From positions 1,328,501 through 1,392,500 of the forward strand of contig NZ_CP036265.1 in assembly GCF_007743815.1 (NCBI RefSeq): 64,000 bases of DNA. Reading direction: 5' to 3'. Under the pieces are notes generated by a model. It worked only from the letters and a program-made list of their open reading frames with translations, did not search any database and was not told where the DNA came from. The position numbers and the translations under genes are program-made. This DNA is from Alienimonas californiensis (GTDB lineage: Bacteria; Planctomycetota; Planctomycetia; Planctomycetales; Planctomycetaceae). This document shows, piece after piece, positions 20,318 to 36,907 of the stretch. Each line of letters begins with the position of its first letter. Positions within the stretch are counted from its first letter, which is position 1.

Positions 20318-22867
20318 ATGCGTTTCCATCTCGTCCCGGTCGTCGTCGTCGTTCAAGGCGTATTGACCGTTGCGGCGCCGGCGTGGGGGCAGGCGGCGGG
20401 GCCGGCGTTGATCGCGGCGCCGCCGCGGCCGCTGCAAACGGACGCCCCCGCCGGCGGGGCGGGGCTGTTCGTGGGGGTGAACCGGTTCTCCGACCCCTCC
20501 GGCGCCGTCTCCGACCTGCGGTACGCGGTGAACGACGCCGTCGGTCTGGCCCACCTGTTCGCCCTGGAACTGGACCTGATCCCGGCGAAGAACTGCACGC
20601 TGGCCCTCTCCGGGGAGCCGGACGGGGAGCGGGGCCAGGCGGAATTAAAAGCGCTGACGGCGGCCGGGGCGCAGGTGACGGGGGCGACGAAGTCGGAGAT
20701 CCTCGACGGCCTGTTCCGGGCCTGCGACGCCGCCGCCCAGGCCGTCGGACCGGCCGCGGGACAGGCCGCCGGACCGGCCGGCGCCGAGAACGCCGCCGCC
20801 CGGGCGCCGTTGGTGATCTCGCTCAGTTCGCACGGCTTCGACGACGCCGGCACGCCGTTCGTCATGCCCTCGGACGGCCGCCGCCGCCGGTTGGGGGTCA
20901 CGGCGCTGCCGCTGTCGATCGTGGAGGACGAAGCCGGCCGCTCCCGGGCGGGCCATCGGCTGTTGCTGGTCGACGCCTGCCAGGAGCGGATCGGCGGGAC
21001 GAAGGCGGTGGGCGCCGCGGGCACGGTCGCGGCGATGTCGCCGGCGTTCGCCGCGGCGCTGGCCAAACCGACCGGGCAGGTGAAGATCGCCAGTTGCGCC
21101 GCCGGCCAGGTCAGCGTGGAGGTCCCCTCGCTGCGGCACGGGGTGTTCACCAAGGCGTTCCTGGATTGCCTGCGCGGCGCCGCGGGCGACCGGGACGGGG
21201 ACGGCGTGATCTCCCTGGGCGACGTGGAGCCGGTCATGGAGGCCCGGGTGAAGGCGCTGATCGCCGACTACAACCAGGGGCTGCCGGAGGGGCGGCGGAT
21301 CGAGCAGTCCCCGGCGTTTTATGGGCCGCTCGCCGCCCGTCGGCTCCCCCTGGCCGTGCCCGCGACCGACGTCGCCGCCCTGATCGCCCAACTCGCGGCG
21401 CAGACCTCCCCGGACGGCTATCCCCCCGTCCTGCACGACCGCGTCGCCGCCGCGTTGCAGGGGCAGGCGGACCCCCGCCTGCACCGGGCGGCGGAGCAGT
21501 TCGCCGCGGGCGGGGACGCCTTCACCTTCCGGGCGGTCGCCGAGGCGCTGCTGACCGGCCGCAAGGTCGTGACCGTCGCCGCCGACGGCTCCGGCGACGT
21601 GCGGACCGTCGCCGAGGCCCTGGCGAAGGTCGCCGACGACGGCCGCGTCCGCGTTCTGCCGGGGACGTATCGGGAGGAGCCGCTCGTGATCGACCGCCCC
21701 GTCACGCTGGAGGGCGTAGGTCCGCGGGAGGAGATCGAGATCCAGTGCGCGACCGGCTACCCGGTGTGGCTGACGGCGACCGGCGCCGTCGTGCGGGGGC
21801 TCTCGCTGACCTGCACCGCCCCCGCCCGCTTGAACGCGGAGGGCGAGCCGGTGGAGACGTTCGAGGCGATCTACGTGACTGCGGGGCGACCGACGATCGA
21901 AGACTGCTTCTTGCGGTCGGAGTTCGGCGGCGGCGTCGGCGTCCAGGGGGCCGGCGCCGAGCCCACGGTGCGAAACTGCGTTGTGGAAGACGCGGGCTTG
22001 AACGGGATCCACATCGCGGACGGCGCGGGCGGTTTCTATGCGGGGTGCGTCGTCCGACGCGCCAAGGGGATCGGCTTCGCGGCGGCGGGCGCCGGCACGG
22101 CGCCCACGGTCAGGAACTGCTCCGCCGAGGACGGCGAGGGCAACGGATTGGTGATCCTCGACGGCGCCGCCGGGACCTATGAAGGGTGCGTCTTCAAGCG
22201 TCACAAGGGGCCCAGCATCGCCGTGGCGGGCGCCGGTACGGCCCCCTCGCTCAAGAACTGCTCCGCCGAAGACGGCGCCCACGGGCTCTACATCGGGGGC
22301 GGGGCCGCCGGCTCCTATCAGGACTGCGCCTTCACCGGCGACGCCCTCGCCAGCATCTTCGTGGAGGGCGCCGGCACGGCCCCCACGCTGACGAACTGCT
22401 CCGTCGTGGGCGGAAAGGACACGGGACTCTTGATCCATGACGGCGCCGCCGGAGTGTTCGAGGGGTGCACGTTCAAGGACCATCAATACGCCGGCGTGAC
22501 GCTCCAGGACGCGGGCACCCGGCCGACCCTCCGCCGCTGCACGATCGCCGGCAACGGCTACCAGGCGATCTGGGTGCGGGCCGGCGCCGGCGCGACCGTC
22601 GAGAACTGCGACCTCAGCGGCAACGTCCGCGGCCCCACCTTTCTCGACGAGGGCGCCGGGTCTCTCGACATCACCCCCTCCGCCATGATTCCCCCCGCCC
22701 CGGGAGTCTTTCCCCCCGCCCCGGGAGGCCTTCCCCCCGCCCCGCCGGCGCCCTTCGATCCGCCGGCGCCCCCCGCCCCGCCGGAGTTCCTCGATGCGCC
22801 GGCGCCGCCCGCTTCGCCAGAAATCCTGGACCCGCCGGCGCCGCCCGCCCCGCCGGGGGGCGGGTGA
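20318..22867 (+). CDS. Secreted caspase-fold protease fused to a right-handed beta-helix and Pro-rich tail
   Basis: 849 residues from the ATG at 20318. The signal peptide is MRFHLVPVVVVVQGVLTVAA...AWG. Residues ~45-350 form a peptidase C14 (caspase/metacaspase) domain: LFVGVNRFSD, LRYAVNDAVGLAHLF, LVISLSSHGFDD (catalytic His172) and LLLVDACQER (catalytic Cys221). From ~415 there is a parallel beta-helix of the pectate-lyase/NosD type (VAADGSGDVRTVAEALAKV, VLPGTYREEP), with repeated GAGTAPT-xx-NCS turns about 46 residues apart. The last ~60 residues are PPAPP repeats. It is predicted to be exported; the helix may bind surface polymers or substrates. Confidence 0.88.
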   Translation: MRFHLVPVVVVVQGVLTVAAPAWGQAAGPALIAAPPRPLQTDAPAGGAGLFVGVNRFSDPSGAVSDLRYAVNDAVGLAHLFALELDLIPAKNCTLALSGEPDGERGQAELKALTAAGAQVTGATKSEILDGLFRACDAAAQAVGPAAGQAAGPAGAENAAARAPLVISLSSHGFDDAGTPFVMPSDGRRRRLGVTALPLSIVEDEAGRSRAGHRLLLVDACQERIGGTKAVGAAGTVAAMSPAFAAALAKPTGQVKIASCAAGQVSVEVPSLRHGVFTKAFLDCLRGAAGDRDGDGVISLGDVEPVMEARVKALIADYNQGLPEGRRIEQSPAFYGPLAARRLPLAVPATDVAALIAQLAAQTSPDGYPPVLHDRVAAALQGQADPRLHRAAEQFAAGGDAFTFRAVAEALLTGRKVVTVAADGSGDVRTVAEALAKVADDGRVRVLPGTYREEPLVIDRPVTLEGVGPREEIEIQCATGYPVWLTATGAVVRGLSLTCTAPARLNAEGEPVETFEAIYVTAGRPTIEDCFLRSEFGGGVGVQGAGAEPTVRNCVVEDAGLNGIHIADGAGGFYAGCVVRRAKGIGFAAAGAGTAPTVRNCSAEDGEGNGLVILDGAAGTYEGCVFKRHKGPSIAVAGAGTAPSLKNCSAEDGAHGLYIGGGAAGSYQDCAFTGDALASIFVEGAGTAPTLTNCSVVGGKDTGLLIHDGAAGVFEGCTFKDHQYAGVTLQDAGTRPTLRRCTIAGNGYQAIWVRAGAGATVENCDLSGNVRGPTFLDEGAGSLDITPSAMIPPAPGVFPPAPGGLPPAPPAPFDPPAPPAPPEFLDAPAPPASPEILDPPAPPAPPGGG

Positions 22868-23044
22868 TCAACCGTGACGGGCGGGAGGAGCGGCGGTTGC
22901 GGACGGTCTGCGAGAAACTTTTCGGACGGCGGGAAGCGGAGCGGCGGCGGCGGCGTATCGCCTGACGAGGGGGCCGCCGGCTCCCCGGTTTTTCCGCCGA
23001 ACCCGACTCCCGGCCGCACCCGGCCCCCACCGAAAGGTTTCCTA

Positions 23045-23365
23045 ATGTTCCGCCTCGTCACCGCCCGCCTGCTGCCCGCCGCCGCCCTCGCCGCAGCGTT
23101 GGCCGCCCCCTCGATCGCCGCCGCCGGCCACTGCGATTCCGGTTCCTGCCACACCGATTCCCGCAACGATTACCGGATCAATTACCGCACCGATTATCAC
23201 GACGACTGCCGGTACGAGTGGGTCACCAAATACCGCGTCGAGACCGTGGTGAAACACAAGCACGTCGTTCAATACGACAGCTACGGCGACCCGTACGTGG
23301 CCGAGGTTCCCTACCGGGCGAAAGTTCGCGTGCCCTACCGCGTGAAGGTGAAGGTCTGTCACTGA
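23045..23365 (+). CDS. Small secreted Cys/His/Tyr-rich protein, unknown function
   Basis: 106 residues. The ATG at 23045 follows an AAAGG-type ribosome site; the longer upstream frame is shadow. Residues 1-27 (MFRLVTARLLPAAALAAALA...IAAA) are a good signal peptide. The mature part begins GHCDSGSCHTDSRND and then has alternating Tyr/Arg segments (YRINYRTDYHDDCRYEW, VPYRAKVRVPYRVKVKVCH) with a central VVKHKHVVQYDSYGDPYV. Four Cys and several His could bind metal or form disulfides. I do not recognise the family. It lies between a caspase gene and a sigma-factor gene on the same strand. Confidence 0.75.
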   Translation: MFRLVTARLLPAAALAAALAAPSIAAAGHCDSGSCHTDSRNDYRINYRTDYHDDCRYEWVTKYRVETVVKHKHVVQYDSYGDPYVAEVPYRAKVRVPYRVKVKVCH

Positions 23366-23449
23366 GGGCCTGTCGCGGCGGCCGGCGGAGGGTTGCGGCT
23401 GCGGGGGCGGATGGGGACTCTCGCGGTCCCCGCCGTTCCCCCCGACGCC

Positions 23450-24088
23450 ATGCTCGATCCCGGCGCTGCCCCCTCCCCCGACGACGCACTCGCCGCCGCC
23501 GCGGCCGAGGGGGACCGGGCCGCCTGGTCCCGGTTGGTGCTCTCGCTGACCCCGCGGCTGATCGGTTTTTTGAAGGCGTCCGGGCTGCGGTCCGCCGAAG
23601 CCGAGGACGCCGCCCAGGAGGCCTGGTTGCGGGTCTGGAGCCACTTCGGCGACTACGACCGCACCCGGCCCTTCCGGCCCTGGCTGTTTCAGATCGCCCG
23701 GAATCATTCCCTCACCCAGCGCCGCTCCGCGGCCCGCCGGGCGCTGCGGGAGCGGGACCGCGGGGAGACCGCCGCCCCCGCCCCCCAGCCGCACGAGGGG
23801 GTCGAACGGCAGGAGACGGTCGACGCCGTGACCCGCTGTTTAGGCGGGCTTTCGGAGGTCGAACGCACCTGCCTGGCCCTCCGCTACCGGGAGGGCCTGA
23901 AGAATCACGAGGTGGCGGACCGGCTGGCGACGCCCAAGGGCACCGTCGACGGCGCCTTCTCCCGCGGCCTGAAGAAGATGTCCGACTGCCTCTCCCGCAG
24001 CGCGTCCCCCCCGCCCGCGTCCGCTTCGTCCTCGTCCTCGTCCTCCCGCCTCCCGGCCGACGCCTCGCCCGGCCTGAACCGTGACTGA
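23450..24088 (+). CDS. ECF-type RNA polymerase sigma factor
   Basis: 212 residues from the ATG at 23450 (MLDPGAAPSPDDAL). Region 2 is seen in LVLSLTPRLIGFLKASG and EDAAQEAWLRVWSHFGDYD through FRPWLFQIARNHSL. Region 4 is LGGLSEVERTCLALRYREGL and KNHEVADRLATPKGTVDGAF, a helix-turn-helix for the -35 element. A Ser/Pro-rich tail of ~35 residues follows and is unlike standard ECF factors. Its stop overlaps the start of the downstream membrane-protein gene by 8 bp, the arrangement typical of sigma/anti-sigma pairs. Confidence 0.9.
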   Translation: MLDPGAAPSPDDALAAAAAEGDRAAWSRLVLSLTPRLIGFLKASGLRSAEAEDAAQEAWLRVWSHFGDYDRTRPFRPWLFQIARNHSLTQRRSAARRALRERDRGETAAPAPQPHEGVERQETVDAVTRCLGGLSEVERTCLALRYREGLKNHEVADRLATPKGTVDGAFSRGLKKMSDCLSRSASPPPASASSSSSSSRLPADASPGLNRD

Positions 24089-25214
24089 CGTCATGAACGC
24101 CCCCTTCCTCCTGGAGACGATGCCGGACGCCCCCAGCGCCCGCGGTCCGTGGCTGGACCGGGCGCTGGTGGGCCGCGGGCTGGATCAGCTCGTTGCGGAA
24201 CTGGAAGCCCTCGGGGCGGCGGTCGCCGCCGAGACGGCTCCGCAGGCCGAACCGGCCGCCGACCCCGCGGACCTGGACGCCGCCCTCGGCCCGCACCGCG
24301 ACGCGGTGCTGACCGACGGCGTGGCCGCGGCGCCGGCGGGCCTGGTCGCGGCGCTGCTGGCCCGGCCGGCGCTGCTGATCACGCTGCGGACGTTGGTGTT
24401 GGAGGAGGGCGGCCCGCATTGGGACGCCGTCGCCGCCGAGGATCCGGAACTGCTCGCCGCCGCCGAACGCGTCGCCGCGGTCGTCGCCGAACGCCTCGCC
24501 GACGCCCCCGCCCCGCCGCCCGCCAAACGGGCGTCCGCCCAGCCAGAGCAAGCCTCGACCCTCCGTCGCGGCGGCATCCTGCCGCCGTCCGCGAGCGCCG
24601 CGAACGGGAGTCTCGGAAACGATTCACGTCGAGAGTCGGCGGCTGGAAGCCGCCGCGACGGCGAACCGCCCGTCGCCAAGCCGCTGCCGGAGAAGACGGT
24701 CGCGGCGCCGCCGAAACAGGAGCGGCGGGGGTCCGGACGTTCGCTGGTCGCGGCCGGGCTGTCGGGCTTGGCCGGGCTGGCGCTGGGCTTTCTGGTCGCC
24801 GTGTTCATGGACGTTGCACCGCAGTTAACCGTCCCGGTCGCGACGATCGGCTGGGGCTGGGCCGGGCCGGAGGGTCTGCCGCAGGCCGACTCGCCCCGGG
24901 CCTACCTGAACGAATTAGCCGACGAGGCCGAGGAGTGGTTCGGCAAACGCCCCGAGGACGCCCCGGCGGTGGCGAAGCGGATCGCGGAGTTTCGGGCCGG
25001 GTGCAGCGTGCTGATCCTCGCCGAGCACCCCGCCCTATCGCCGGCGTCGGCGGAATTATTGCGGGAGAAGTGCCGCAACTGGGCCGCGGCACTGGACGCA
25101 CAACTCGCCGCCGTCGAGGCCGGCGAACCGCCGATCGAGGTGCGATCCCGGACGGACGAAACCGTCCGCAAATTAATCGACGCCCTGCGGGGCGAGGCGA
25201 TCCTCAACGTCTGA
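24081..25214 (+). CDS. Single-pass membrane protein coupled to the ECF sigma gene (candidate anti-sigma/sensor)
   Basis: 377 residues from the GTG at 24081, overlapping the sigma stop by 8 bp; the in-frame ATG at 24093 is an alternative. The N-terminal ~145 residues are helical and Ala/Leu/Glu-rich (LDQLVAELEALGAAVAAE). A basic/Pro linker follows, then one membrane helix at about 222-243 (LVAAGLSGLAGLALGFLVAV). The C-terminal ~120 residues (YLNELADEAEEWFGKRPEDA, LILAEHPALSPASAEL) would be outside. No zinc-binding HxxxCxxC motif of classical ZAS anti-sigmas is present. The role is inferred from coupling only. A palindromic repeat is translated within the linker. Confidence 0.7.
   Translation: MTDVMNAPFLLETMPDAPSARGPWLDRALVGRGLDQLVAELEALGAAVAAETAPQAEPAADPADLDAALGPHRDAVLTDGVAAAPAGLVAALLARPALLITLRTLVLEEGGPHWDAVAAEDPELLAAAERVAAVVAERLADAPAPPPAKRASAQPEQASTLRRGGILPPSASAANGSLGNDSRRESAAGSRRDGEPPVAKPLPEKTVAAPPKQERRGSGRSLVAAGLSGLAGLALGFLVAVFMDVAPQLTVPVATIGWGWAGPEGLPQADSPRAYLNELADEAEEWFGKRPEDAPAVAKRIAEFRAGCSVLILAEHPALSPASAELLREKCRNWAAALDAQLAAVEAGEPPIEVRSRTDETVRKLIDALRGEAILNV
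24563..24661. repeat. Palindromic repeat embedded in a coding sequence
   Basis: Arms CCGTCGCGGCGGC (24563-24575) and GCCGCCGCGACGG (24649-24661) are perfect reverse complements. Each is part of a smaller hairpin (CGGCGGCATCCTGCCGCCG and CGGCGGCTGGAAGCCGCCG). The second hairpin sequence recurs between convergent genes at 52149-52175. The 99 bp (33 codons) is translated in frame as part of the linker just before the membrane helix of the sigma-coupled protein. Confidence 0.8.
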
Positions 25215-25587
25215 CCCCGTCCGCCGGCTCCTGCCGCGGATTGAGAGTCAAACTGCGGATTGCGTTCCCAACGTCCGCTTGCGGTTTCGCGGCGCCCAAG
25301 GGTTCTCCGGTGCCGCGAAACCGCAAGCGGACGAACGAATTCAACGCGTCGTCCGGTTTCTTTGCAGATTGCGGCAAGCAGCCCGCGATCGGCGGCGTAT
25401 CGCTCGCGTGTCGAACTTCGCCCCCTCCGTCGTCCCCGTTCAGTCCGCTCCCCGCGTGGGTCATGGATTAACGGTTGCGGGCGGGGTCAAGGGGGTTTGT
25501 CATGAGACTCGCCCCGCGTCCTCTCCCATTCGCCGGATGCGTGTCCGGCGTCTCGCCTCCCGTCGCTCCCTTCAAGCCGTCGCCGTG
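25215..25587. repeat. Intergenic region with 25-bp-arm palindrome
   Basis: The 373 bp between the membrane-protein and haem-protein genes holds one palindrome with arms at 25272-25296 and 25309-25333 (CGTCCGCTTGCGGTTTCGCG... against ...CGCGAAACCGCAAGCGGACG), with one mismatch and a 12 bp loop. It could terminate upstream transcription. The remaining ~250 bp carry no recognisable gene. Confidence 0.75.
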
Positions 25588-27354
25588 ATGAACGCTCGCC
25601 TGCTCCCCGCCGCGCTCGCCGCGGCCGTCGTGTTCTCGGCCGCCCCCGCCGGGGGCGCGACGGAGACGGCCGCGGACTCGGCGACCGTCGCCTCCGCGGC
25701 CCGCTCCGTTTTAAGGACGCACTGCTCCCGCTGTCACAGCGGCGAGGGCTCCCCCGGGGGGAGCTTCGACGTGCTGGACGTGGCCTCGTTAAAGAAGGCC
25801 GGCCACCTCGACGCCGACAGCCCCGCCGACAGCTTCGTGCTGGACGCGATCGAGACGAATTACATGCCCCCCACTAACATCCGCGAACAAGCCCCCGTGC
25901 CGGAGTCGGACCGGGCGGCACTGCGGGCCTGGCTGGCGGCCGGCGCCCCGGACTTCCCCTCCGAGGCCGACCGCCAGCACGTCATGCTCACCTCGGTGCT
26001 CTCCGCCGTGCGGGACGACCTGCGGGAGACGACCCGCGAAGACCGGCCGACGCGGCGGTACTTCAGCCTGCACACGCTGTTCAATAATCCGAACGTGCTC
26101 GCCTCGGACCTGCCTGCCTACCGGGCGGCGCTGTCCAAATCCGTCAACAGTATGTCCTGGGAACCCACCATCACCCCGCCCCGCGAGGTGACCGGCGAGG
26201 GGCTGCCCGGCGGCGTGCTGTACGCCGTCGATCTGCGGGATTACGGCTGGGACGCCGCCGACTGGCAGACCGTGTTGAAGGCCTACCCGTACGGCCTGAG
26301 TTACGGGAACCTCGGCGGGGACGAGGGCGAGACGCTGGGCCGTTTGGGCGAGGATCTGGAGGATTTGTCCGGCACGACGCTGCCGATCGTGCGGGCCGAC
26401 TGGTTCGTCGCCGCCGCCGCCCGCCCGCCGCTTTATAACGTGCTGCTCGATCTGCCGGAGACCGAACTGGCTCTGGAAAAGAAGCTGGACGTGGACGTGA
26501 AGCGCCACTTCGCGGACCCGCGGCCGCGGACCATCGCCCGAGCCGGCTTCTCCCGCAGCGGCGTCAGCGCCCAGAACCGGCTGGTCGAACGGCACGCCTC
26601 CCCCTACGGCGCCTACTGGAAAAGCTACGACTTCGGCCCGGACAACGGCCGCGGCAAGCTCACCCGGTTCCCCCTCGGCCCGGCGGGGGCGTTTACAAAC
26701 CACGAACGCCTCGCCTTCAAGCACGACGGCGGCGAGGCGATCTTCAGCCTGCCCAACGGCCTGCACGGCTACTTCCTGTCCGACGGCGCGGGCGCCTACC
26801 TGCACGCCGGGCCGATCGAGGTCGTCGGCGACACCCTCAAGACGGCCGGCACCCCCTCGATCGTCAACGGCGTCTCCTGCTTCGCCTGTCATAAGACCGG
26901 CATGATCGACCTGACGGACACCATGCGGACCGGCAACGGGGTGTTCGGCGAGGCCGAGGACCTCATCCGCCAACTCCACCCGCCCAAGGAGGAGATGGAC
27001 CGCCTCGTGCAGAGCGACCGCGCCGCCTACCTGCGGGCCCTCCGGCAGGCCGTGGCGGAGTTCGACGACAGCGAACCCACCGCCGAGGGCTACGTCGATC
27101 CGATCGGCCACGTCGCCCGTCAGCACCGGCTGGTGTTCCTGGACGGGGAGGCGGTCGCCGCCGAATTGAACCTCGCCAGTTTTGAAGAGCTCCGCGACCG
27201 CGTCAGCCACCGCGATCTGAAGGAATTAGGCCTGGAACCGCTGCTGGAGGGCGGGGCGATCGGCCGGCCGGAGTGGGAGGCGACCTACCGCGGCGTCTCC
27301 CTGATGCAGGAACTCGCCCGCCGGCTGCGGTACACGCCGGTCACCCCGCTGTGA
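25588..27354 (+). CDS. Secreted protein with two c-type haem motifs
   Basis: 588 residues. The ATG at 25588 gives a proper signal peptide (MNARLLPAALAAAVVFSAAP); the frame upstream is repeat-derived. THCSRCHSGEG (Cys46, Cys49, His50) and VSCFACHKTG (Cys431, Cys434, His435) are two CxxCH haem attachment sites, widely spaced. Between them lies a ~350-residue region (YFSLHTLFNNPNVL, AVDLRDYGWDAADWQTVL, KAYPYGLSYGNLGGDE) often seen in planctomycete secreted cytochrome-like proteins. MPPTN after the first haem may supply the axial Met. A periplasmic redox role is likely and the substrate is unknown. It sits between the sigma pair and the caspase-WD40 genes. Confidence 0.82.
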   Translation: MNARLLPAALAAAVVFSAAPAGGATETAADSATVASAARSVLRTHCSRCHSGEGSPGGSFDVLDVASLKKAGHLDADSPADSFVLDAIETNYMPPTNIREQAPVPESDRAALRAWLAAGAPDFPSEADRQHVMLTSVLSAVRDDLRETTREDRPTRRYFSLHTLFNNPNVLASDLPAYRAALSKSVNSMSWEPTITPPREVTGEGLPGGVLYAVDLRDYGWDAADWQTVLKAYPYGLSYGNLGGDEGETLGRLGEDLEDLSGTTLPIVRADWFVAAAARPPLYNVLLDLPETELALEKKLDVDVKRHFADPRPRTIARAGFSRSGVSAQNRLVERHASPYGAYWKSYDFGPDNGRGKLTRFPLGPAGAFTNHERLAFKHDGGEAIFSLPNGLHGYFLSDGAGAYLHAGPIEVVGDTLKTAGTPSIVNGVSCFACHKTGMIDLTDTMRTGNGVFGEAEDLIRQLHPPKEEMDRLVQSDRAAYLRALRQAVAEFDDSEPTAEGYVDPIGHVARQHRLVFLDGEAVAAELNLASFEELRDRVSHRDLKELGLEPLLEGGAIGRPEWEATYRGVSLMQELARRLRYTPVTPL

Positions 27355-27383
27355 GTCCGATTTGGATCTGAAATGACCGTTCA

Positions 27384-27476
27384 CCAACCCGAAGCGTCAG
27401 CGAGGGCCCCGCGGCGTCGCCGCGGGGAAACGCTCGCCGGGCTGCGCCCGACGCCCTCGCTCACGCTTCGGGTTGG
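27384..27476. repeat. CAACCCGAAGCGTCAGCGAG-type palindromic repeat, copy 1
   Basis: The left arm (27384 onward, CCAACCCGAAGCGTCAGCGA) and right arm (27453-27476, ...TCACGCTTCGGGTTGG) are inverted with one mismatch and a ~45 bp GC-rich middle. The same arms recur at 39658-39740 and 41241-41301. It lies between two co-directional genes in the caspase cluster. Confidence 0.88.
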
Positions 27477-27525
27477 TTTTGAAACCGCGTCTCCGCCCCC
27501 CGTCCTCCTCACCACGCCCCTCGAC

Positions 27526-28713
27526 ATGGCTCGCTCATCGATTTCCGCCGCCCTCGTCGGGTGGCTCTCCCTGACCGTCGCGCTCTCCGCCGCCCCAACC
27601 GCCCCCGCCGCCGAGGGGGAAGCGACCGTCGCCGCCCAGTGCGCCGCCCTCGCCAAGCGGGTGACCGAGGTGGCGGACGGCAAACCGGTGCAGATCGGCC
27701 AGTTCGCCCCGGTCGGCCTCAGCGCGAACTTCGGCCCCGGGCTGGAGGAGTCCCTGAAGACGGCGCTGGAAGCCGCGAACGCCCGCGTGGTGACGAAGGA
27801 CGCTGCCTTCGAGGTGCACGGCACCTACGCCTTCGCCAAAACGCGGGGCTCGGAGTTCGACGGCCGCAAGGTCGTGAAAGTGGACGCCGAGGTCGTCGAC
27901 TTGGAGTTCGCCGAGACGATCACCCGCATCCCCCTGCGGATCGACGCCAACGAGGAGGTCGCCGAGGTGATCGGCGTCACCGGCACGATCGCCGAACCCG
28001 CCCCCAAGCCCGACCCCGCCGCCCCCGCGCCCGGCGCCGAGGCCGAGAAGAACAAGCAGCGGGCCGACCTGGAGCAGCTCGAGGCCTCCCCCACCGCGTC
28101 GGTGCGGAACGGCAGCCAGGTGCAGCCGGACTCCGAAAGCCTGCTGGCCGTCGAGGTGATGGCCGGGCCGTCGCTGAGCCAGCTCCGCCCGCGGGCCGCG
28201 ACGGTGCAGGACGGCAAGGTGTTCGTGGATTTGGAGCTGGGCGAGGTCTTTCAGTTGCGGGTCTATAACGGCTCCGAGGAGGAGATCGGCGTGAAGGCCT
28301 CGCTGGACGGGCTGAACAGCTTCCACTTCGCCGACAAGGTCCACCGCGGCCCGGACGGCAAGCTGACGGTCGGCCCGCATTATATTTACGAGCCCGGCCA
28401 GACCCTCGACATCCCCGGCTGGTTCCTGCGGATGGAGGGGCAGAACAATTATCAGGCGTTCTCGATGGTGGAGTACGGCGCCGGGGCGGCCTCCTCGCAG
28501 GGCCGCGACGCTAGCGGGCGGATCGGCGTGATCCACGTGCAGTTCTCCGACGTCGCCCCCCCCGGCAAAGCGGGGGACCTGGTGAAGGGCGGCGGGACGA
28601 AGTCCCTGGAGATCGACCGCGGCGAAGGGTTCACCGTCGATCAGAAGTCCGTCCGCCGCGAGGTCCTGCCCCCCTTCGCCTTCGTCACGATCCGGTACGA
28701 TCGCGCCCGCTGA
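27526..28713 (+). CDS. Secreted protein of unknown function in caspase cluster
   Basis: 395 residues from the ATG at 27526 (MARSSISAALVGWLSLTVAL), a clear signal peptide. Residues ~25-150 (VQIGQFAPVGLSANFGPGLE, LKTALEAANARVVTKDAAFE, VHGTYAF) suggest an alpha/beta domain reminiscent of CsgG/LpoB-type lipoprotein domains, but I cannot assign it. A Pro/Ala/Glu linker follows. The C-terminal ~180 residues are beta-rich (GEVFQLRVYNGSEEEIGVKA, YIYEPGQTLDIPGWFL, IGVIHVQFSDVAPPG), as in an accessory sandwich domain. Only 63 bp separate it from the first caspase-WD40 gene, so co-transcription and a shared function are likely. Confidence 0.72.
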   Translation: MARSSISAALVGWLSLTVALSAAPTAPAAEGEATVAAQCAALAKRVTEVADGKPVQIGQFAPVGLSANFGPGLEESLKTALEAANARVVTKDAAFEVHGTYAFAKTRGSEFDGRKVVKVDAEVVDLEFAETITRIPLRIDANEEVAEVIGVTGTIAEPAPKPDPAAPAPGAEAEKNKQRADLEQLEASPTASVRNGSQVQPDSESLLAVEVMAGPSLSQLRPRAATVQDGKVFVDLELGEVFQLRVYNGSEEEIGVKASLDGLNSFHFADKVHRGPDGKLTVGPHYIYEPGQTLDIPGWFLRMEGQNNYQAFSMVEYGAGAASSQGRDASGRIGVIHVQFSDVAPPGKAGDLVKGGGTKSLEIDRGEGFTVDQKSVRREVLPPFAFVTIRYDRAR

Positions 28714-28776
28714 GCCCGCGGCGCCCGCCCCCGGCGCCCGCGCGTCCCCCCGTTCCCCCGCGTCCTGGACCCTGCC

Positions 28777-30882
28777 GTGCCCGCCCCGTGCCCCCCGCCG
28801 CTCGCCGTCGCTTCGCTGCTGATCGCCGCGGCGCTCGGCGGGGGCCTCGGCCCGGCCGTCGCGCACGCGCAGCCGCCCGGCGAGCCGGAGGACGAGTTCT
28901 CCGTCGACGAGGCGAACGACGTCCGGACCATCCCGCGGTATGCAGTGGTCGTCGGCGTGAGCGACTACGACGACCAGGCGATCCCCGACCTGCCGGTCTG
29001 CGATCTGGACGCCAAGGAGGTCTACGCGGCGCTGACCGACCCGAACGTGGGCGGCGTGCCGAAGGCGAACGCCACACTGTTGATCGGCAAGGACGCCTCC
29101 CGCAACGGGGTCCTCAAAGCGTTGAACGCACTGCGGGCGACGCCGAAGAACGCGACCGTGTACTTCTATTTCAGCGGCCACGGCGCCCGGGTGGGCGATC
29201 AGACGTACCTCATCCCGCAGGACGCCGAAGCCAGCTTCCTCGCCGGTTCCGCGCTCTCGCAGAACGAATTAAACCGTTATCTGGAGGCCGTGCCCGCCAG
29301 CCGGATGGTGCAGTTCGTGGACGCCTGCTTCGCCGCCGGGCTGCGGTCCGATCCGTCGAAACCGACCAAGGCCTTCGCCGCCGACGCCGAGGCGGCGCTG
29401 CAATCCTTCACCGGCCGCGGCCGCATCTTCTTCGGGGCCGCGGGGGAGGACGAAGAGGCCCTCACCGCCCCGGACAAGCAGCGGAGCGTATTCACCCTCC
29501 ATCTGCTCGACGGGTTGAAGGGCGGGGCGGACGAGAACCTCGACGGGGTGGTGACGGCGTTTGAGGTGCAGGCCTATCTGGACCGCACCGTCTCCGTGGA
29601 AGCCGCCCAGCGGGGCGGTCTGCACAGCCCGCGGGTGGAGTTCCCCGCCGACGTGGTGAACCCCAGCCGCTACCCCCTCACCATCAACGCCGCCGCGCTG
29701 GAGTCGCGGACCGCCGCCGCGAAACTGCTCCGCACGCGGCTGAACGCCTTGGAGGCGTTCTTCTACGCCGGGAAGCTGAACCTGGCGCGGCTCGAACTGG
29801 CGCGGGATCTCGTGAAGCGCCCCGAGAAAGCCCTCGCCGGCCACGAACGGATCGCCCGCGACGAGGTGCTGGCCGCGATCGACCGCGGTTCGGTCGACGC
29901 CCGGATGTCGCTCGCCCTGGACCGGATGGGCGCCCCCTCCCTGCCGGCGGCGCCCAAATCGATGCACCTGCGGGCGACCGTGCCGGCGCCGCTGACGCTG
30001 GAGGGGCACGACCGCCCCGTCGCCGCCGTCGCCGTCTTGCCGGACGGGTGGCGGGCCGTCAGCGCCTCGGCCGACGGGACGCTGAAGGTCTGGAACCTCG
30101 CCACCCGAACCTGCGACCGCACGCTGGGGGGCGATCAGGGGCACGGGGGGAAGGTCTCCGCCGTGGCCGTCACCCCGGACGGGCTGCGGGCCGTCAGCGG
30201 GTCGGCCGACCAGACGTTGAAGGTCTGGGATCTGGCCACCGGAGTCTGCGAACGCACGCTGGAGGGGCTCGCCAGCAACGTCACCGCCGTCGCCGTCACG
30301 CCGGACGGCAAGCGGGCCGTCAGCGGGGCCTGGGATAAGACGCTGCGGGTCTGGGACCTGAGCACCGGCGAGGCCGGCGATCCCCTGGAGGGCCACACGA
30401 ACTGGATCGCCGCCCTGGCGATCACGCCGGACGGGACGCGGGCCGTCAGCGCCTCCTACGACAACGACCTGCGGATCTGGAACCTGACCACCGGCGCCTG
30501 CGAGCGCACGCTGACGGGCCATTCCAACAGCGTGACCGCGGTGGCGATCGCCCCGGACGGGCAGCGGGCCGTCAGCGCCTCGGGCGACGGGACGTTGAAG
30601 GTCTGGAACCTCGCCGACGGGAGCTGCGAGCGAACGCTGGAGGGGCACTCCGAATGGGTCGACGCCGTCGCCGTCACCCCGGACGGCCGCCGGGCCGTCA
30701 GCGGCGCCTGGGACGGGCAACTGAAGGTGTGGAACCTGTCGACCGGCGTCTGCGAACGCACGTTGCAGGGCCACGCCGGCGTCGTGAACGCCGTGGCCGT
30801 GACGCCGGACGGCGGGCGGATCGTCAGCGGCTCCCACGACGACACCCTGCGGGTCTGGGACGTCTTCGAACCGGACCGCTGA
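28777..30882 (+). CDS. Secreted caspase-fold protease with seven WD40 repeats (paralogue 1)
   Basis: 701 residues from a GTG start. The signal peptide is VPAPCPPPLAVASLLIAAAL...AHA (GTG read as Met). The caspase domain (~45-280) shows YAVVVGVSDYDDQAIPDLPV, VYFYFSGHGARVGD (His135) and MVQFVDACFAAG (Cys184), with SFTGRGRIFFGAAGEDEEAL forming the specificity region. A helical linker (~300-390) follows, then seven WD40 blades from ~405 to the end, each with VAVTPDG-xRAVSG-x-WD-x-TLKVWNL. The closing repeat ends almost at the C-terminus. This is an exported caspase-like protease with a beta-propeller; its closest visible relative is the next gene, 53 bp downstream. Confidence 0.92.
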   Translation: MPAPCPPPLAVASLLIAAALGGGLGPAVAHAQPPGEPEDEFSVDEANDVRTIPRYAVVVGVSDYDDQAIPDLPVCDLDAKEVYAALTDPNVGGVPKANATLLIGKDASRNGVLKALNALRATPKNATVYFYFSGHGARVGDQTYLIPQDAEASFLAGSALSQNELNRYLEAVPASRMVQFVDACFAAGLRSDPSKPTKAFAADAEAALQSFTGRGRIFFGAAGEDEEALTAPDKQRSVFTLHLLDGLKGGADENLDGVVTAFEVQAYLDRTVSVEAAQRGGLHSPRVEFPADVVNPSRYPLTINAAALESRTAAAKLLRTRLNALEAFFYAGKLNLARLELARDLVKRPEKALAGHERIARDEVLAAIDRGSVDARMSLALDRMGAPSLPAAPKSMHLRATVPAPLTLEGHDRPVAAVAVLPDGWRAVSASADGTLKVWNLATRTCDRTLGGDQGHGGKVSAVAVTPDGLRAVSGSADQTLKVWDLATGVCERTLEGLASNVTAVAVTPDGKRAVSGAWDKTLRVWDLSTGEAGDPLEGHTNWIAALAITPDGTRAVSASYDNDLRIWNLTTGACERTLTGHSNSVTAVAIAPDGQRAVSASGDGTLKVWNLADGSCERTLEGHSEWVDAVAVTPDGRRAVSGAWDGQLKVWNLSTGVCERTLQGHAGVVNAVAVTPDGGRIVSGSHDDTLRVWDVFEPDR

Positions 30883-30935
30883 CCCGCCGCCGGTACCCTG
30901 TCCTGAGCCTTCGCCCCGCAGCCCCCGCCGTCGCC

Positions 30936-33113
30936 GTGTCGTTCGCCCGCCGTCCGCTGCCGCTCGTCGCTTCCGGGCCGTTCGTCGCCGCGCTGGCCTT
31001 GTGTCTGCTGACCGGGGCGACCGCGTTCGCCCAAGCCCCCGCCCTGCCCAACGGGGCTACCCCGCCGAACGGGGCGGCGGCTCCGGACGATCGGTTCTCC
31101 GCGGAGGAGGCCAACGCCGTGGCCGGGCGGGTGAAGAACGAACCGCGGCACGCCCTGATCGTCGGCGTGCCGGACTACGCGGACGCGGCCATCCCCGACC
31201 TGCCCGTCTGCGCGCCGGACGCGAAGGCGGTCTACGACCTGCTGACCGACCCGGCCGTGGGCGGCGTGCCGAAGGCGAACGCCACGCTGCTGATCGGCAA
31301 GGACGCCTCCCGCCGCAACATTCTCAAGGCGTTGAACGACCTGCGGGCCGTGCCGCAGGAGTCCACGGTCTTCTTCTACTTCAGCGGTCACGGCGCCCGG
31401 GTGGGGGATCAAACGTACCTGATCCCGCAGGACGCCGAAGCCGCCTTCCTCGCCGGCTCCGCCCTCTCCCAAAGCGAACTGGACCGCTATTTGAAAGCGG
31501 TGCCCGCCAGCCGCGTGGCGCTGTTCGTCGACGCCTGCTTCGCCGCCGGCCTCCGCACCGACCCCGGCCGTCCCACGAAAGCCTTCGCCGCGGACGCCGA
31601 GGCCGCCCTGCAATCCTTCACCGGCCGCGGCCGCATCTTTTTCGGCGCCGCCGGCGCCGACGAGGAAGCCCTCACCGCTCCCGACAAACAGCGGAGCGTG
31701 TTCACCCTCCACCTGCTCGAAGGCTTGGGCGGGAAGGCCGACGGCAACGGCGACGGCGTGGTGACGGCCTTCGAGGTCGCCGCCTATCTGGACGGCACCG
31801 TCTCCGCCGAGGCGAGGAAGCGGGGCGGCCTGCACCGGCCCCGGGTGGACATCCCCGCGGACGTCGTCGACCCCAGCCGCTACCCCCTCACGATCCACGC
31901 CGCGGCATTGAAGTCGCGGACCGCCGCCGCGGTGCTGCTCCGCCAGCGATTGGACGTGCTCGACGGGTTCTTCCTCGACGGCGCCCTCACCCGGCCCCAG
32001 CGCGATCAGGCCGCGACGCTGCTATCGACGGACGAACCGCGCCTCTCCCGCCTCCAGCGGCAGGCCCGCGACACGGCGCTGGCCGCGGTCGAACGGGGCG
32101 CGGTCGACGAACGTCTGACCCGCGCCTTGGATCTGATGGTCGAACAGGCCCCCCCGCCGTCGACCGGGGCGCCGTCGACCGGGGAGCCGAAGGGCCCCAC
32201 GCCGATGCGGCTGCGGGCGGTCGTGCCCCCGCCGCGGGTGGCGGAGGGGCACCTCGCCGGGGTGCTGTCGCTGGCCGTCGCCCCGGACGGGCAGCGGGCC
32301 GTCAGCGGATCGTGGGATAAGACGCTGCGGGTCTGGAACCTCGCCGAGGGAACCGCCGAACGGACCCTGGAGGGCCACCGGGAACGCGTGAACGCCGTGG
32401 CGATCACGCCGGACGGGACGCGGGCGCTCAGCGGGTCCTGGGACCGCACGCTGGCGGTCTGGAACCTCGCCGACGGCCAGCCGGAGCGGGCGCTCAACGG
32501 GCACAGTTGGGGCGTGCTCGCCGCGACGATCACGCCGGACGGGCAGCGGGCGCTCAGCGGGTCGTGGGACAAGACGGTGCGGGTCTGGACCCTCGCCGAC
32601 GGCCGGGAGCAGTTCGTTCTGAAGGGCCACGCGGAGCAGATTAATTCAATCGCGGTCGCGCCGGACGGCGGACGGGCGGTCAGCGCCTCGGACGACGGCA
32701 CGCTCCGGGTCTGGAACCTCGCCGACGGCCGGGAGGAGCGGGTCCTCGAAGGCCACGCCGCCGCGGTGCGGGCCGTGGCGATCGCCCCGGACGGCGAGCG
32801 GGCCGTCAGCGGGGACAAGCACGGCGCCCTGCGGATCTGGAACCTGACCACCGGCGCCGCCGAGCGGACCATGAAGGGCCACCCCGACGGCGTGAACGCC
32901 GTGGCGATCACCCCCGACGGCCGGCGGGCCGTCAGCGGGGGGGGCGACGGCACGGTGCGGGTCTGGAACCTCGCCGCCGGCGCCGCCGAGGGCACGCTGG
33001 AGGGCCACACCGGCAGCGTGAACGCCGTGGCGATCACCCCCGACGGCCGGCAGATCGTCAGCGGCTCCAACGACCGCACCCTCCGCCTCTGGGACGCCTT
33101 CGAGCGGGAATGA
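30936..33113 (+). CDS. Secreted caspase-fold protease with seven WD40 repeats (paralogue 2)
   Basis: 725 residues from the GTG at 30936 (VSFARRPLPLVASGPFVAAL), with a signal peptide ending near FAQA. The frame extends upstream into the previous gene without homology. The caspase domain has HALIVGVPDYADAAIPDLPV, VFFYFSGHGARVGD (His152) and VALFVDACFAAG (Cys201). Seven WD40 blades run from ~431 to the end. Long segments are nearly identical to paralogue 1 (GGVPKANATLLIGKDASR, QSFTGRGRIFFGAAG), so the pair arose by tandem duplication. Both catalytic residues survive in each copy, arguing against a dead duplicate. Confidence 0.92.
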   Translation: MSFARRPLPLVASGPFVAALALCLLTGATAFAQAPALPNGATPPNGAAAPDDRFSAEEANAVAGRVKNEPRHALIVGVPDYADAAIPDLPVCAPDAKAVYDLLTDPAVGGVPKANATLLIGKDASRRNILKALNDLRAVPQESTVFFYFSGHGARVGDQTYLIPQDAEAAFLAGSALSQSELDRYLKAVPASRVALFVDACFAAGLRTDPGRPTKAFAADAEAALQSFTGRGRIFFGAAGADEEALTAPDKQRSVFTLHLLEGLGGKADGNGDGVVTAFEVAAYLDGTVSAEARKRGGLHRPRVDIPADVVDPSRYPLTIHAAALKSRTAAAVLLRQRLDVLDGFFLDGALTRPQRDQAATLLSTDEPRLSRLQRQARDTALAAVERGAVDERLTRALDLMVEQAPPPSTGAPSTGEPKGPTPMRLRAVVPPPRVAEGHLAGVLSLAVAPDGQRAVSGSWDKTLRVWNLAEGTAERTLEGHRERVNAVAITPDGTRALSGSWDRTLAVWNLADGQPERALNGHSWGVLAATITPDGQRALSGSWDKTVRVWTLADGREQFVLKGHAEQINSIAVAPDGGRAVSASDDGTLRVWNLADGREERVLEGHAAAVRAVAIAPDGERAVSGDKHGALRIWNLTTGAAERTMKGHPDGVNAVAITPDGRRAVSGGGDGTVRVWNLAAGAAEGTLEGHTGSVNAVAITPDGRQIVSGSNDRTLRLWDAFERE

Positions 33114-33537: not shown

Positions 33538-36500
33538 TCAGTGAAAATCCCGGCTGCGCAGCCGGGCGCCGTCGAGCGCGGCGTCGGCGGGGCCGGACCG
33601 CAGCGCCTCCCGCAGGTCGGTCAGCCGACTGACGACCAGGTGCAGCGTCTTACGGCTGTCGTCCCGCTGCACGGCGCCCGTCACCAGCAGCGCCCCGGCG
33701 GTGCGGGCGGGGCGGTGGAACGCCTCCCACACGCTCGGCCAGAGCACGAGGTTCGTCTCGCCGGTTTCGTCTTCAATCGTGACGAACGTGACCCCCTTCG
33801 CCGACCCCGGCCGCTGCCGCATGAGCACCAGCCCGGCGACCGTCGCGGTCGTGCCGTCCGCCAGCCCGCCCAGCCGCCGGCAGGGCAATACGCCGCGGGT
33901 CTTTAATTGATCGCGGACGGCCGCCATCGGGTGGCCGTTCAGGCTCAATCCGGTGCGGGCGTAGTCCTCGATCACGGTTTGATGGGGGGTGAAGTTCGGC
34001 AGGGCCGGCGTCGGGTCGGAGGGTTCGACCTCCAGCCCCGCGGCGTCCGGCAGCGGGGCCGCGGTGCGATCCGGCAGGGCGTGCCAGCGGGCCTGACGGC
34101 GGGCCAGCCCCAGCGAGGCGAACGCCCCCGCCCCGGCGAGCCGGTCGCAGGCCGTCCGCGGCAGCCCGGCCCGGCGGGCGCAGTCCGCCACGGAGACGAA
34201 CGCCCCGCCCGCCGCCCGCGCCCGGGAAATCGCCTCCGCGTGCACCTCCCGCAGCCCGGCGATCTGCCGCAGCCCCAACCGCAGCGCCGGCCGCTCCGGC
34301 AACGGGCCGCCGCTGACGTGGCCTTCCTTGTTCCGGTCTTCGAGGGTGCAGTCCCAGTCGGAGGCGTTCACGCACGCCGGCCGCACGATCACCCCCTGCC
34401 GCTTCGCCTCTTTCACAAGCTGGGCCGGCTGATAAAAGCCCATCGGCTGGCTGTTCAGGATCGCCGCGAAGAACGCCGCCGGATGCCTGCATTTGAGATA
34501 GCAACTCACGACCACCAGACAGGCGAAGCTGGCGGCGTGGCTCTCCGGGAAGCCGTACTCGCCGAAGCCCTGAATCTGAGCGAACAGGCGGTCGGCGAAG
34601 TCCCGCTCGTAGCCGTTGGCCCGCAGGCCGTCCTTCAATTTGCGTTCGAAGTCGCCGATGTCCCGACCGCTTTTCCGCCACCCGGCCAGCGCCCGCCGCA
34701 ATTGATCCGCCTCGCCCGGGCTGAAGCCGGCGGCGACCTCGGCGAGCTTCATGCACTGCTCCTGAAAGATCGGCACCCCCAGCGTGCGTTCCAGCACGGC
34801 CTTCACCCGGTCGTCCGGGTAGGTCACGTCCTCTTCGCCCCGCCGGCGGCGGATATACGGATGCACCATCCCGCCCTGAATCGGCCCCGGACGGATCAGG
34901 GCCACTTCAATGACGAGGTCGTAATACCGCTCCGGCCGGGTGCGGGGCAGCGTGGCCCGCTGGGCGCGGCTTTCAATTTGAAACACCCCCGCCGTCTCCG
35001 CCCGACGGATCATGCGGTAGGTGTCCGCATCGTCGATCGGAATATCGGCCAGGTCCAGCACGTTCGCCCCCGTCACGCCGAGGTCCCGCGGGGCCTCGGC
35101 GTGACGGGCCGGCGAGGCGCTCCGCCGCAGTTCCGGGGCGAGCCTGTGCACGTCCAGCAGGCGAAAACACTTTTGAATCGCCGTGAGCATCCCCAACGCC
35201 AGCACGTCGACTTTTAACAGCCCGAGGGCTTCGAGATCGTCCTTGTCCCACTGCACGACGGTGCGGTCGGTCATGCTGGCGTTTTCCACGGGGACGAGTT
35301 CGTCCAACCGGCCGCGGGTCATCACCATCCCGCCGCTGTGCTGCGAGAGGTGCCGCGGAAAGCCCAGCAATTGCCGGACGAGCGTGATGAGCTGCTGGGC
35401 CAGCCGCGTGTCCGGGTCGAACGCCGCCTCGCGGAAGCGGGTTTTCAGTTTCTCGCCGCAGCCCTCCTCGCCGTAGCGGCCGATGCTTTTGGCGAGCGCG
35501 TCGACCCGGTCCAGACTCAGCCCCAGCGCCTTGCCGACGTCGCGGATGGCGCTGCGGGGGCGGTAGGTGATGACCGTCGCCGCGATGCCGGCCCGCTCCC
35601 GGCCGTATTTTTGGTAGAGGTATTGAATCACCTCCTCGCGGCGTTCGTGTTCGAAGTCGACGTCGATGTCCGGCGGTTCGTTGCGTTCCTCGGACAGGAA
35701 CCGCTCGAAGAAGAGATGATGCTCCGCCGGGTCCACCGCGGTGACGCCCAGGCAGTAGCAGACGGCGCTGTTCGCCGCCGAGCCCCGGCCCTGACAGAGA
35801 ATCCCCCGGCTGCGGGCGAACCGCACCAGGTCGTAGACGGTGAGGAAATAAGCCGCGTAGTTCAGCTTTTCGATCAGCCACAATTCATGCCCCAGCGCCG
35901 TCTTGACCGCGTCCGGCACGCCCCTGGGATAGCGGTCGCGGGGGTAGCGCTTCTCCGCCCCGGCCCAGGTCAGGCGGGCGAGGTAGCCCATCGGCGTTTC
36001 GCCCTTCGGGACGATCTCCTCCGGGTATTCGTACCGCAGTTCGTCCAGATTGAACCGGCAGCGCTCGGCGATCTCGACGGTGCGATCCAGCAGGTCGGCC
36101 CGGCCGTGGAAGGTGCGGAGCAGGTCGCCGCGGTCTTTGAGGTGGCGTTCCCCGTTGGGGGCGAGTTCGGCGACCAGTTCCGACACCGGCCGCCCCAGCC
36201 GGGTCGCGGTGAGCACGTCGTGCAGAAACCGTCGGTCCGGGGCGTGATACAGCACGCCCCCCGCCGCGACCGGCGGCAACCGGGCCGCGTTCGCCGCGGC
36301 CAACTGTTCCGCCAACGCCCGCCGATCCTCCGGCCCGCGACTCAGTTCGACCAACCCCCAGCAACGCCCGGGGAAGGCGTCGCGGAAGTCCGCGGGAGTC
36401 GTTGTCTCCTCGCGGGACTCCCGATCGAGAGTTAGCGTGACGCCGCAGCAGAGTCCGGCGGCGTGGGCGGCGACGTCGGAGAAGCGGAGGTCGCACGCTC

Positions 36501-36891: not shown

Positions 36892-36907
36892 GAACGGTCT
36901 CCCGGCG

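Follow-up and report, generated by a model that had tools for sequence, protein, structure and literature searches.

Recurrent exported caspase-fold proteases beside a dihaem cytochrome-like protein in Planctomycetota suggest a cell-envelope signalling cassette

Several described bacterial systems resemble the gene cluster reported here, which lies in a 64,000-nucleotide stretch (the window) of the genome of Alienimonas californiensis CA12, a single contig of 5,475,215 bp. The cluster brings together three caspase-fold proteases, an extracytoplasmic function (ECF) sigma factor with a membrane protein, an exported protein with two CxxCH motifs (the dihaem protein) and another exported protein whose gene begins at position 27526 (the partner). 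In the available parts of the papers by Kaur et al. (PMC7159879, PMC8195603), the EACC1/EACC2-caspase conflict systems are described as having one constant caspase gene whose C-terminal domains are exchangeable and of many kinds, and most EACC2 neighbourhoods without TRADD-N as holding an ECF sigma factor. The window cluster is like these systems, as so described, in its caspases with exchangeable domains and in the ECF sigma factor nearby; in contrast to them, its caspases look exported and its constant partners are the dihaem protein and a protein with LpoB- and Ig-like domains. The caspase_w_EACC1 model (NF047832) gave 104.2, 101.2 and 46.6 bits with the window caspases, below its cut-off of 140, and no EACC1 family stood among the matches listed for the other window proteins, in libraries that were not confirmed to hold an EACC1 model.

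A caspase-fold protease gene also adjoins a sigma factor in the Myxococcus metacaspase operons with sigma-70 genes (Asplund-Samuelsson 2012, PMC3501461) and in ECF54, where the proteases are of the CHAT type and the system is described as working without an anti-sigma factor (PMC8999054); unlike the window cassette, neither is credited with a cytochrome or an LpoB/Ig-like partner in the parts of these sources that were available. Metacaspase-WD40 and metacaspase-FGE-sulfatase are published domain architectures, and the cassette caspases share both domain pairs, but the word “cytochrome” never appears in the main text of that paper (PMC3501461). The sections at hand of other papers report Planctomycetes WD40 neighbourhoods with sigma-70 genes (PMC5587647) and retroelement-diversified caspase or FGE proteins (PMC7517822, PMC10907252). 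In the open full-text literature, a scope that leaves subscription papers and preprints outside, no description of caspases with this cytochrome was found. As an analogy only, the animal apoptosome (cytochrome c, Apaf-1 WD40 and caspase) likewise combines a c-type haem protein, WD40 repeats and a caspase fold; unlike there, the WD40 repeats of the window are on the caspase itself, and the setting is the cell envelope rather than the cytosol. No STAND/AP-ATPase, NACHT or CARD domain was found in the window set, and the N-terminal 388-400 residues of the WD40 caspases match Peptidase_C14 alone. The repeated finding of exported caspases beside a cytochrome-like protein and its partner suggests an undescribed cell-envelope signalling cassette.

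Recurrence and constant core of the cassette

To follow the cluster through other genomes, the genome collection was scanned with an alignment of dihaem homologues (A1) alone, and the best 80 of 548 confirmed relatives were taken, so that the choice of loci was blind to caspases. Planctomycetes supplied 76 of these 80 loci, the others including Blastocatellia, Chloracidobacterium and a Poribacteria bin. Low-G+C genomes defeat the gene caller, and the counts therefore rest on six-frame searches; the clustering of neighbouring genes does rest on the gene caller. With a locus called partner-linked when a partner gene lies at most 2.5 kb from the dihaem gene, 47 of the 80 loci qualified, and in 45 of these 47 the partner gene stands directly downstream on the same strand. 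A caspase was present in 36 of the 47 partner-linked loci (within 5 kb in 33 of them) versus 3 of the 33 others, and these three exceptions include one in which a degenerate caspase and the dihaem domain form one open reading frame (ORF; L131) and one in which the partner gene lies further off (L107).

The same division appeared in a quick tree of 76 dihaem sequences, where a split with full support in the Shimodaira-Hasegawa-like approximate likelihood ratio test (SH-aLRT) set 22 rows with neither caspase nor partner gene apart from 54 rows, 37 of them with a caspase. Limited to the 80 loci, the tree has a caspase in 32 of 49 loci on the cassette side and in 0 of 22 on the side of the sister clade; with the nine loci outside the tree, whose identical sequence is already in it, added to the cassette type, the figures become 39 of 58 and 0 of 22. 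Caspase presence requires 14 changes on the dihaem tree, a patchiness that is expected if the caspase is an exchangeable output gene. A separate count with Pfam found 60 PF00656 matches in 15 genomes. Of these matches 20, from 12 different genomes, have one of 30 dihaem genes no more than 10 kb away, where 0.39 were expected from density. The 30 dihaem genes were hand-picked and do not include G014:C270, G016:C369 (which is in two pieces), the second of the pieces of G046:C70 or partial matches of lower strength; with many contigs being short, the count will have missed some neighbours. Duplicate loci (L071, L076, L110, L132, and L154 or L084) were left out of the dyad alignment, the signal count and the clustering described below. 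The outcome that would have spoken against the sequence-only reading, a lack of caspase-WD40 homologues near the sigma pair, the haem protein or the 27526 protein in related genomes, did not occur: a cassette of dihaem protein and partner, in most cases with at least one exported caspase and at most nine, recurs across Planctomycetota.

Its constant core is the dihaem gene with the 27526-type gene, while the number of caspases and the domains attached to them vary. A second caspase cluster of A. californiensis (L241, G000:C1:184000-203999) is syntenic with a locus of A. chondri (L084), and both caspases, a gene for a Tyr-rich protein and the flanks are kept between the two; the dihaem and partner genes are both missing from L241, and the window copy is the sole full-length dihaem gene of the A. 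californiensis genome. Being absent together, the two genes behave as a pair.

On one contig of genome G046 (contig 8; L233, L079), nine Pfam caspases surround a single dihaem-partner pair, one of them with an internal stop codon, and on contig 70 of the same genome a tenth lies beside another dihaem gene.

Proteins of the cassette

The dihaem protein begins with a class-I cytochrome c domain, PSCyt1-like and about 130 residues long. In the 17 homologues of A1 the first CxxCH is found in at least 90%, and an MP pair and the second CxxCH are invariant; the PSCyt1 profile matches all 17 with E values from 1.4e-9 to at most 5, and on its own the window copy reaches E 0.55, below the cut-off. From these motifs the protein would bind haem. 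The C-terminal domain of about 450 residues has only CxxCH-type matches in Pfam and NCBIfam and no family. In an AlphaFold model (mean predicted local distance difference test, pLDDT, 82.7), three cytochrome c'-beta chains top the VIA-align list for the second haem domain at weak Z scores of 4.7-4.4; HHalign against the P460 family aligned only 13 columns round the CxxCH, PF16694 was not among the Pfam matches of the 17 members, and Foldseek with the model returned nothing at E 0.001.

What the dihaem module, PSCyt1 plus the dihaem domain, is joined to in its relatives is more telling. A protein kinase precedes it in L098, L104 and L142, and two of these proteins (L104:8549-11665 and L142:2890-5622) are receptor-kinase-like, with a protein kinase, a membrane segment and then the cytochrome/dihaem module. 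A single ORF (L131:4317-7820) encodes in succession an FHA domain, a membrane segment, a degenerate caspase, PSCyt1 and the dihaem domain, and among 26 long or sister-clade dihaem proteins TPR matches occur in 6 and WD40 in 4. Domain joins of this kind are typical of reused sensor domains. Given these joins, to a kinase on the other side of a membrane segment and to FHA, a degenerate caspase, WD40 and TPR, the module may be taken as an input, and the dihaem protein is a stronger sensor candidate than the WD40 or beta-helix parts, to which the sequence-only reading had given that role.

The partner protein of the window has no Pfam family, and 3 of the 19 relatives in its alignment (A2) match the Ig-like FixG_C weakly. 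In its AlphaFold model (pLDDT 80.6), residues 33-141 superpose on LpoB (4q6z) with a VIA-align Z of 11.2 over 100 residues at 2.4 A. The modelled N-terminal domain thus shares its fold with the C-terminal domain of LpoB, which does not imply kinship, and it also resembles TolB-N, PelC and CsgG; the C-terminal beta sandwich of the model gave weak MSP/ZP-like matches at a Z of about 5. LpoB is an activator of cell-wall synthase. A lipobox-like motif, sought with a home-made rule, was found in none of the 60 partner ORFs that have a signal-like start (75 tested).

All three window caspases exceed the Peptidase_C14 (PF00656) Pfam cut-off of 21.4 bits, and their His/Cys dyads align; the scores of the two WD40 caspases in Table 1 are those of their N-terminal parts, a genome-wide search having given 52.7 and 56.8 bits. 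These two proteins are 65% identical, which makes them tandem duplicates. The A. chondri counterpart of the beta-helix caspase, 55% identical over the caspase part, directly precedes the dihaem gene (L069). A caspase-domain model was built from seeds of the window and its own genome rather than from the whole caspase-WD40 query, which was swamped by unrelated WD40 proteins. Across the loci this model found 85 domains with both dyad residues in 78, or in 69 of 75 ORFs without identical copies, a conservation that exceeds the 64% of planctomycete caspases in which the Cys-His pair is conserved (PMC3501461). Judged by their dyads, the cassette caspases are probably active. Pfam covered 65 of the 76 caspase ORFs, the others being lost to a size limit or to truncated ends, and found PF00656 in 60 (E 0.001), an FGE-sulfatase domain in 33 and WD40 in 14; TPR and beta-helix parts are also among the varied attached domains. 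The 65-row caspase profile (A4, 64 distinct rows) matches structures of the paracaspase MALT1 and of metacaspases, families that cut after basic residues; a sequence search of the PDB with the window caspase domain alone gave nothing at 0.01. A home-made signal rule recognised signal-like N-termini in 62 of the 76 ORFs for caspases, 75 of the 93 for dihaem proteins and 60 of the 75 for partners, the 76 caspase ORFs being 74 distinct ones with the identical pairs L077/L099 and L081/L149 retained. When the window proteins were scanned with PADLOC, its “caspase” model matched both WD40 caspases.

A further family of small secreted Tyr-rich proteins, about 160 amino acids long and without a Pfam match (e.g., L074:9279-9758 and L098:13112-13597), was found in 13 of the 58 loci of cassette type, not counting L138 with its weak match, versus 0 of the 22 sister-clade loci, and 9 of its 10 genomes have a partner gene. 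An A. californiensis copy (G000:C1:198137-198577), which has one internal stop codon, lies beside two other caspases. The Tyr-rich protein may be a client of the cassette.

The Alienimonas californiensis cluster and its sigma factor pair

The eight genes of the window cluster are listed in Table 1. As had been read from the sequence, all of them lie on one strand, the sigma/membrane pair, the two-CxxCH protein and the secreted proteins included, at or near the positions first assigned, and the three caspase folds with intact dyads, the single beta-helix and the two WD40 propellers of seven stretches each were borne out. Other parts of that reading held less completely. A signal peptide had been proposed on all three caspases, and each does have a hydrophobic N-terminus; the 20318 and 28777 proteins, however, fail a simple signal-peptide rule, and in the latter no basic residue stands ahead of the hydrophobic stretch, so its export signal, or its start, is less certain. 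The start of the second WD40 caspase gene is probably near 30936, instead of the ORF start at 30654. Two secreted proteins had been counted as part of the set: that at 27526 recurs, but that at 23045 has no Pfam match and was not among the recurrent neighbours in the gene-caller-based clustering.

Table 1. Genes of the caspase cluster in the window
Feature	Position	Strand	Evidence
Exported caspase-fold protease with C-terminal right-handed beta-helix	20318..22867	+	PF00656 24.8 bits; PF13229 (Beta_helix) 113.7 bits; aligned dyad H + C; hydrophobic N-terminus
Small secreted protein	23045..23365	+	No Pfam match; outside the recurrent neighbour families of the clustering
ECF sigma factor	23450..24088	+	PF04542 and PF08281 (Sigma70_r2/r4); TIGR02937 83.1 bits (cut-off 42.9)
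Membrane protein, candidate anti-sigma factor	24081..25214	+	8-nt overlap with sigma gene; no Pfam match; Cys pair
Exported dihaem protein	25585..27354	+	Class-I cytochrome c (PSCyt1-like) domain; domain of about 450 residues with second CxxCH
Exported partner protein (“unk”)	27526..28713	+	Modelled LpoB/TolB-N/CsgG-like N-terminal domain and C-terminal Ig-like beta sandwich
Caspase-fold protease with seven WD40 repeats	28777..30882	+	PF00656 51.1 bits; PF00400 in seven stretches; export likely, signal least certain
Exported caspase-fold protease with seven WD40 repeats	30936..33113	+	PF00656 55.4 bits; PF00400 in seven stretches; signal-like N-terminus

The sigma factor had been described as coupled to a single-pass membrane protein. 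The two genes do overlap, but in the window protein a clear membrane segment (residues 221-239) is preceded by a second, weaker hydrophobic stretch (residues 75-93); the other 10 members of the 11-sequence alignment of its family (A5) have a single segment. Two Cys residues C-terminal of the membrane segment are invariant in all 11. The protein is a candidate anti-sigma factor; the NCBIfam antisigma model matched one of two scanned relatives, only at E 0.025. Six-frame searches found the pair in the window, in L075 and in L079, and L075, which belongs to another family, holds the sigma factor, membrane protein, caspase-WD40, dihaem and partner genes together. Besides these, the pair adjoins the cassette in eight of the 80 loci, of which seven are partner-linked and five also have a caspase. 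By genome, the membrane protein occurs in 17 of 79 relatives and a partner gene in 18, with 13 genomes common to the two sets (p 6e-8, relatedness uncorrected). Further copies, whose surroundings were viewed in 14 genomes, mostly lie away from the cassette; the few exceptions have a caspase (L225 and L228) or a dihaem gene (L220 and L230) next to them. The membership of the sigma pair in the recurrent set thus holds by genome, 13 of 17, but not by constant adjacency; co-occurrence of this sort fits a shared pathway.

A spaced motif, GAAC-N14-19-GTC, was seen in 6 of 20 upstream regions of sigma genes, where shuffled sequences gave 1.9 on average and 5 at most; as one of 20 ECF-like pairs tried it was not counted and is no more than a lead.

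Upstream of the cluster lies a polyphosphate kinase gene. After it, at 33538-38527 on the minus strand and convergent with it, Pfam finds a DNA polymerase III alpha-type gene and an impB/mucB/samB-type gene, the latter just below the cut-off, which we take to be a pair like DnaE2-ImuB.

A possible signalling role and the alternatives

The reading preferred here, tentatively and as a real possibility rather than a settled matter, is that of a planctomycete cell-envelope signalling cassette with a dihaem sensor, an LpoB/Ig-like coupler and exported caspases as its output. The exported dihaem protein would sense a redox state, an oxidant or a haem-binding gas outside the cytoplasm, and the partner would connect this sensor with the envelope or with its clients. 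Exported caspases would respond as a switchable output and, where the sigma pair is present, an activated caspase could make the first, outer cut in the membrane protein, upon which the sigma factor would be freed. The genes, their motifs, the export-type N-termini (as judged by a simple rule), the recurrence and clade specificity, the joined architectures and the co-occurrence by genome are established; the conjectural parts of this scheme are the binding of haem, the direction from sensor to protease, the role of the membrane protein as an anti-sigma factor, the cleavage step and the physiological stress involved. It retains from the sequence-only reading a signal-controlled proteolytic set outside the cytoplasm, centred on recurrent caspases with the haem and 27526 proteins and in part the sigma pair, and gives up sensing by the WD40 and beta-helix parts in favour of the dihaem module, which is the outer domain of kinases and is itself joined to WD40, TPR and a degenerate caspase. 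Several observations weigh against it. A caspase is missing from 11 of the 47 partner-linked loci, and only 4 of these 11 are shorter than 10 kb; among the longer ones is that of Rhodopirellula sallentina (L117), with 14 kb. The second haem domain resembles cytochrome c'-beta weakly (Z 4.7) and without support from profile comparison, and the caspase fused to the dihaem module in L131 lacks its dyad, with Q and A at the two positions. The sigma/membrane pair adjoins the cassette in only 8 of the 80 loci, and 1 of these 8 is not partner-linked; L120 and L136 have the pair and the partner gene and no caspase; and no convincing common promoter emerged from 20 upstream regions of sigma genes, the best spaced word pair being present in 5 of them, equal to shuffles (3-5). 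A bolder version is a bacterial cytochrome c-WD40-caspase switch of the envelope, in which the exported caspases are under the control of the dihaem protein and so, by way of a sigma factor kept at the membrane, is gene expression; such a switch, with the logic of the apoptosome in another location and with no ATPase, seems rather unlikely.

The same genes could belong to a machine that builds the envelope, in which the dihaem protein is an enzyme (a peroxidase-like oxidase, for instance) with secreted proteins like the Tyr-rich one as its substrates, and the caspases process the same clients, as maturation and not signalling. The occurrence of the Tyr-rich family in cassette-type loci (13 of 58) but not in those of the sister clade (0 of 22), its near-constant company with partner genes (9 of 10 genomes) and the LpoB-like fold of the partner, by the role of LpoB as a cell-wall synthase activator, would suit such a machine; the window cluster, however, has no Tyr-rich gene, nor do 45 of the 58 loci of cassette type, and the joins of the dihaem module to kinase, FHA and WD40 look sensory, which leaves maturation a fairly improbable account. 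About as doubtful is a role in conflict or defence, with variable sensor domains on an expanding set of exported caspases detecting invaders or competitors, killing or arresting the cell, and the cytochrome as part of the trigger. The exchangeable WD40, FGE, TPR and beta-helix parts, the crowd of caspases around one dihaem gene in G046 and the PADLOC match of both WD40 caspases fit this account, and published caspase conflict systems, in the parts of the papers available, use such domains (PMC7159879, PMC10907252); those systems, as described there, rest on MoxR-vWA, EACC1 and STAND, however, none of which is among the matches listed for the eight window proteins, and the cassette caspases look exported. 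More improbable still is an envelope-stress proteolytic system with the sigma factor as its master switch and the WD40 and beta-helix parts as its sensors: the pair lies inside the window cluster and co-occurs with it by genome, but it is rarely adjacent, the sensor-like joins belong to the dihaem module and the promoter search was unconvincing. Chance or a lineage neighbourhood without any functional link is very improbable. Planctomycete genomes do hold several caspases and many PSCyt1 proteins, and the p values are uncorrected for genome relatedness or near-identical loci; against this stand Fisher p values of 1e-9 and 4.5e-8 and several families with different flanks, and chance clustering was rejected on the 36 of 47 versus 3 of 33 loci, the 20 observed versus 0.39 expected caspases and the split in the tree.

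Bacterial relatives of caspases have mostly been discussed as proteases of death and defence, and the signalling cassette proposed here would offer them a candidate input signal and partners. It defines three families with no Pfam or NCBIfam match above cut-off among the scanned members, namely the dihaem C-terminal domain, the LpoB/Ig-like partner and the Cys-pair membrane protein. It also makes two ideas testable in planctomycetes: that caspase-fold proteases may govern sigma factors through the extracytoplasmic cleavage of an anti-sigma factor, and that the coupling of cytochrome c to caspases may have a bacterial counterpart.

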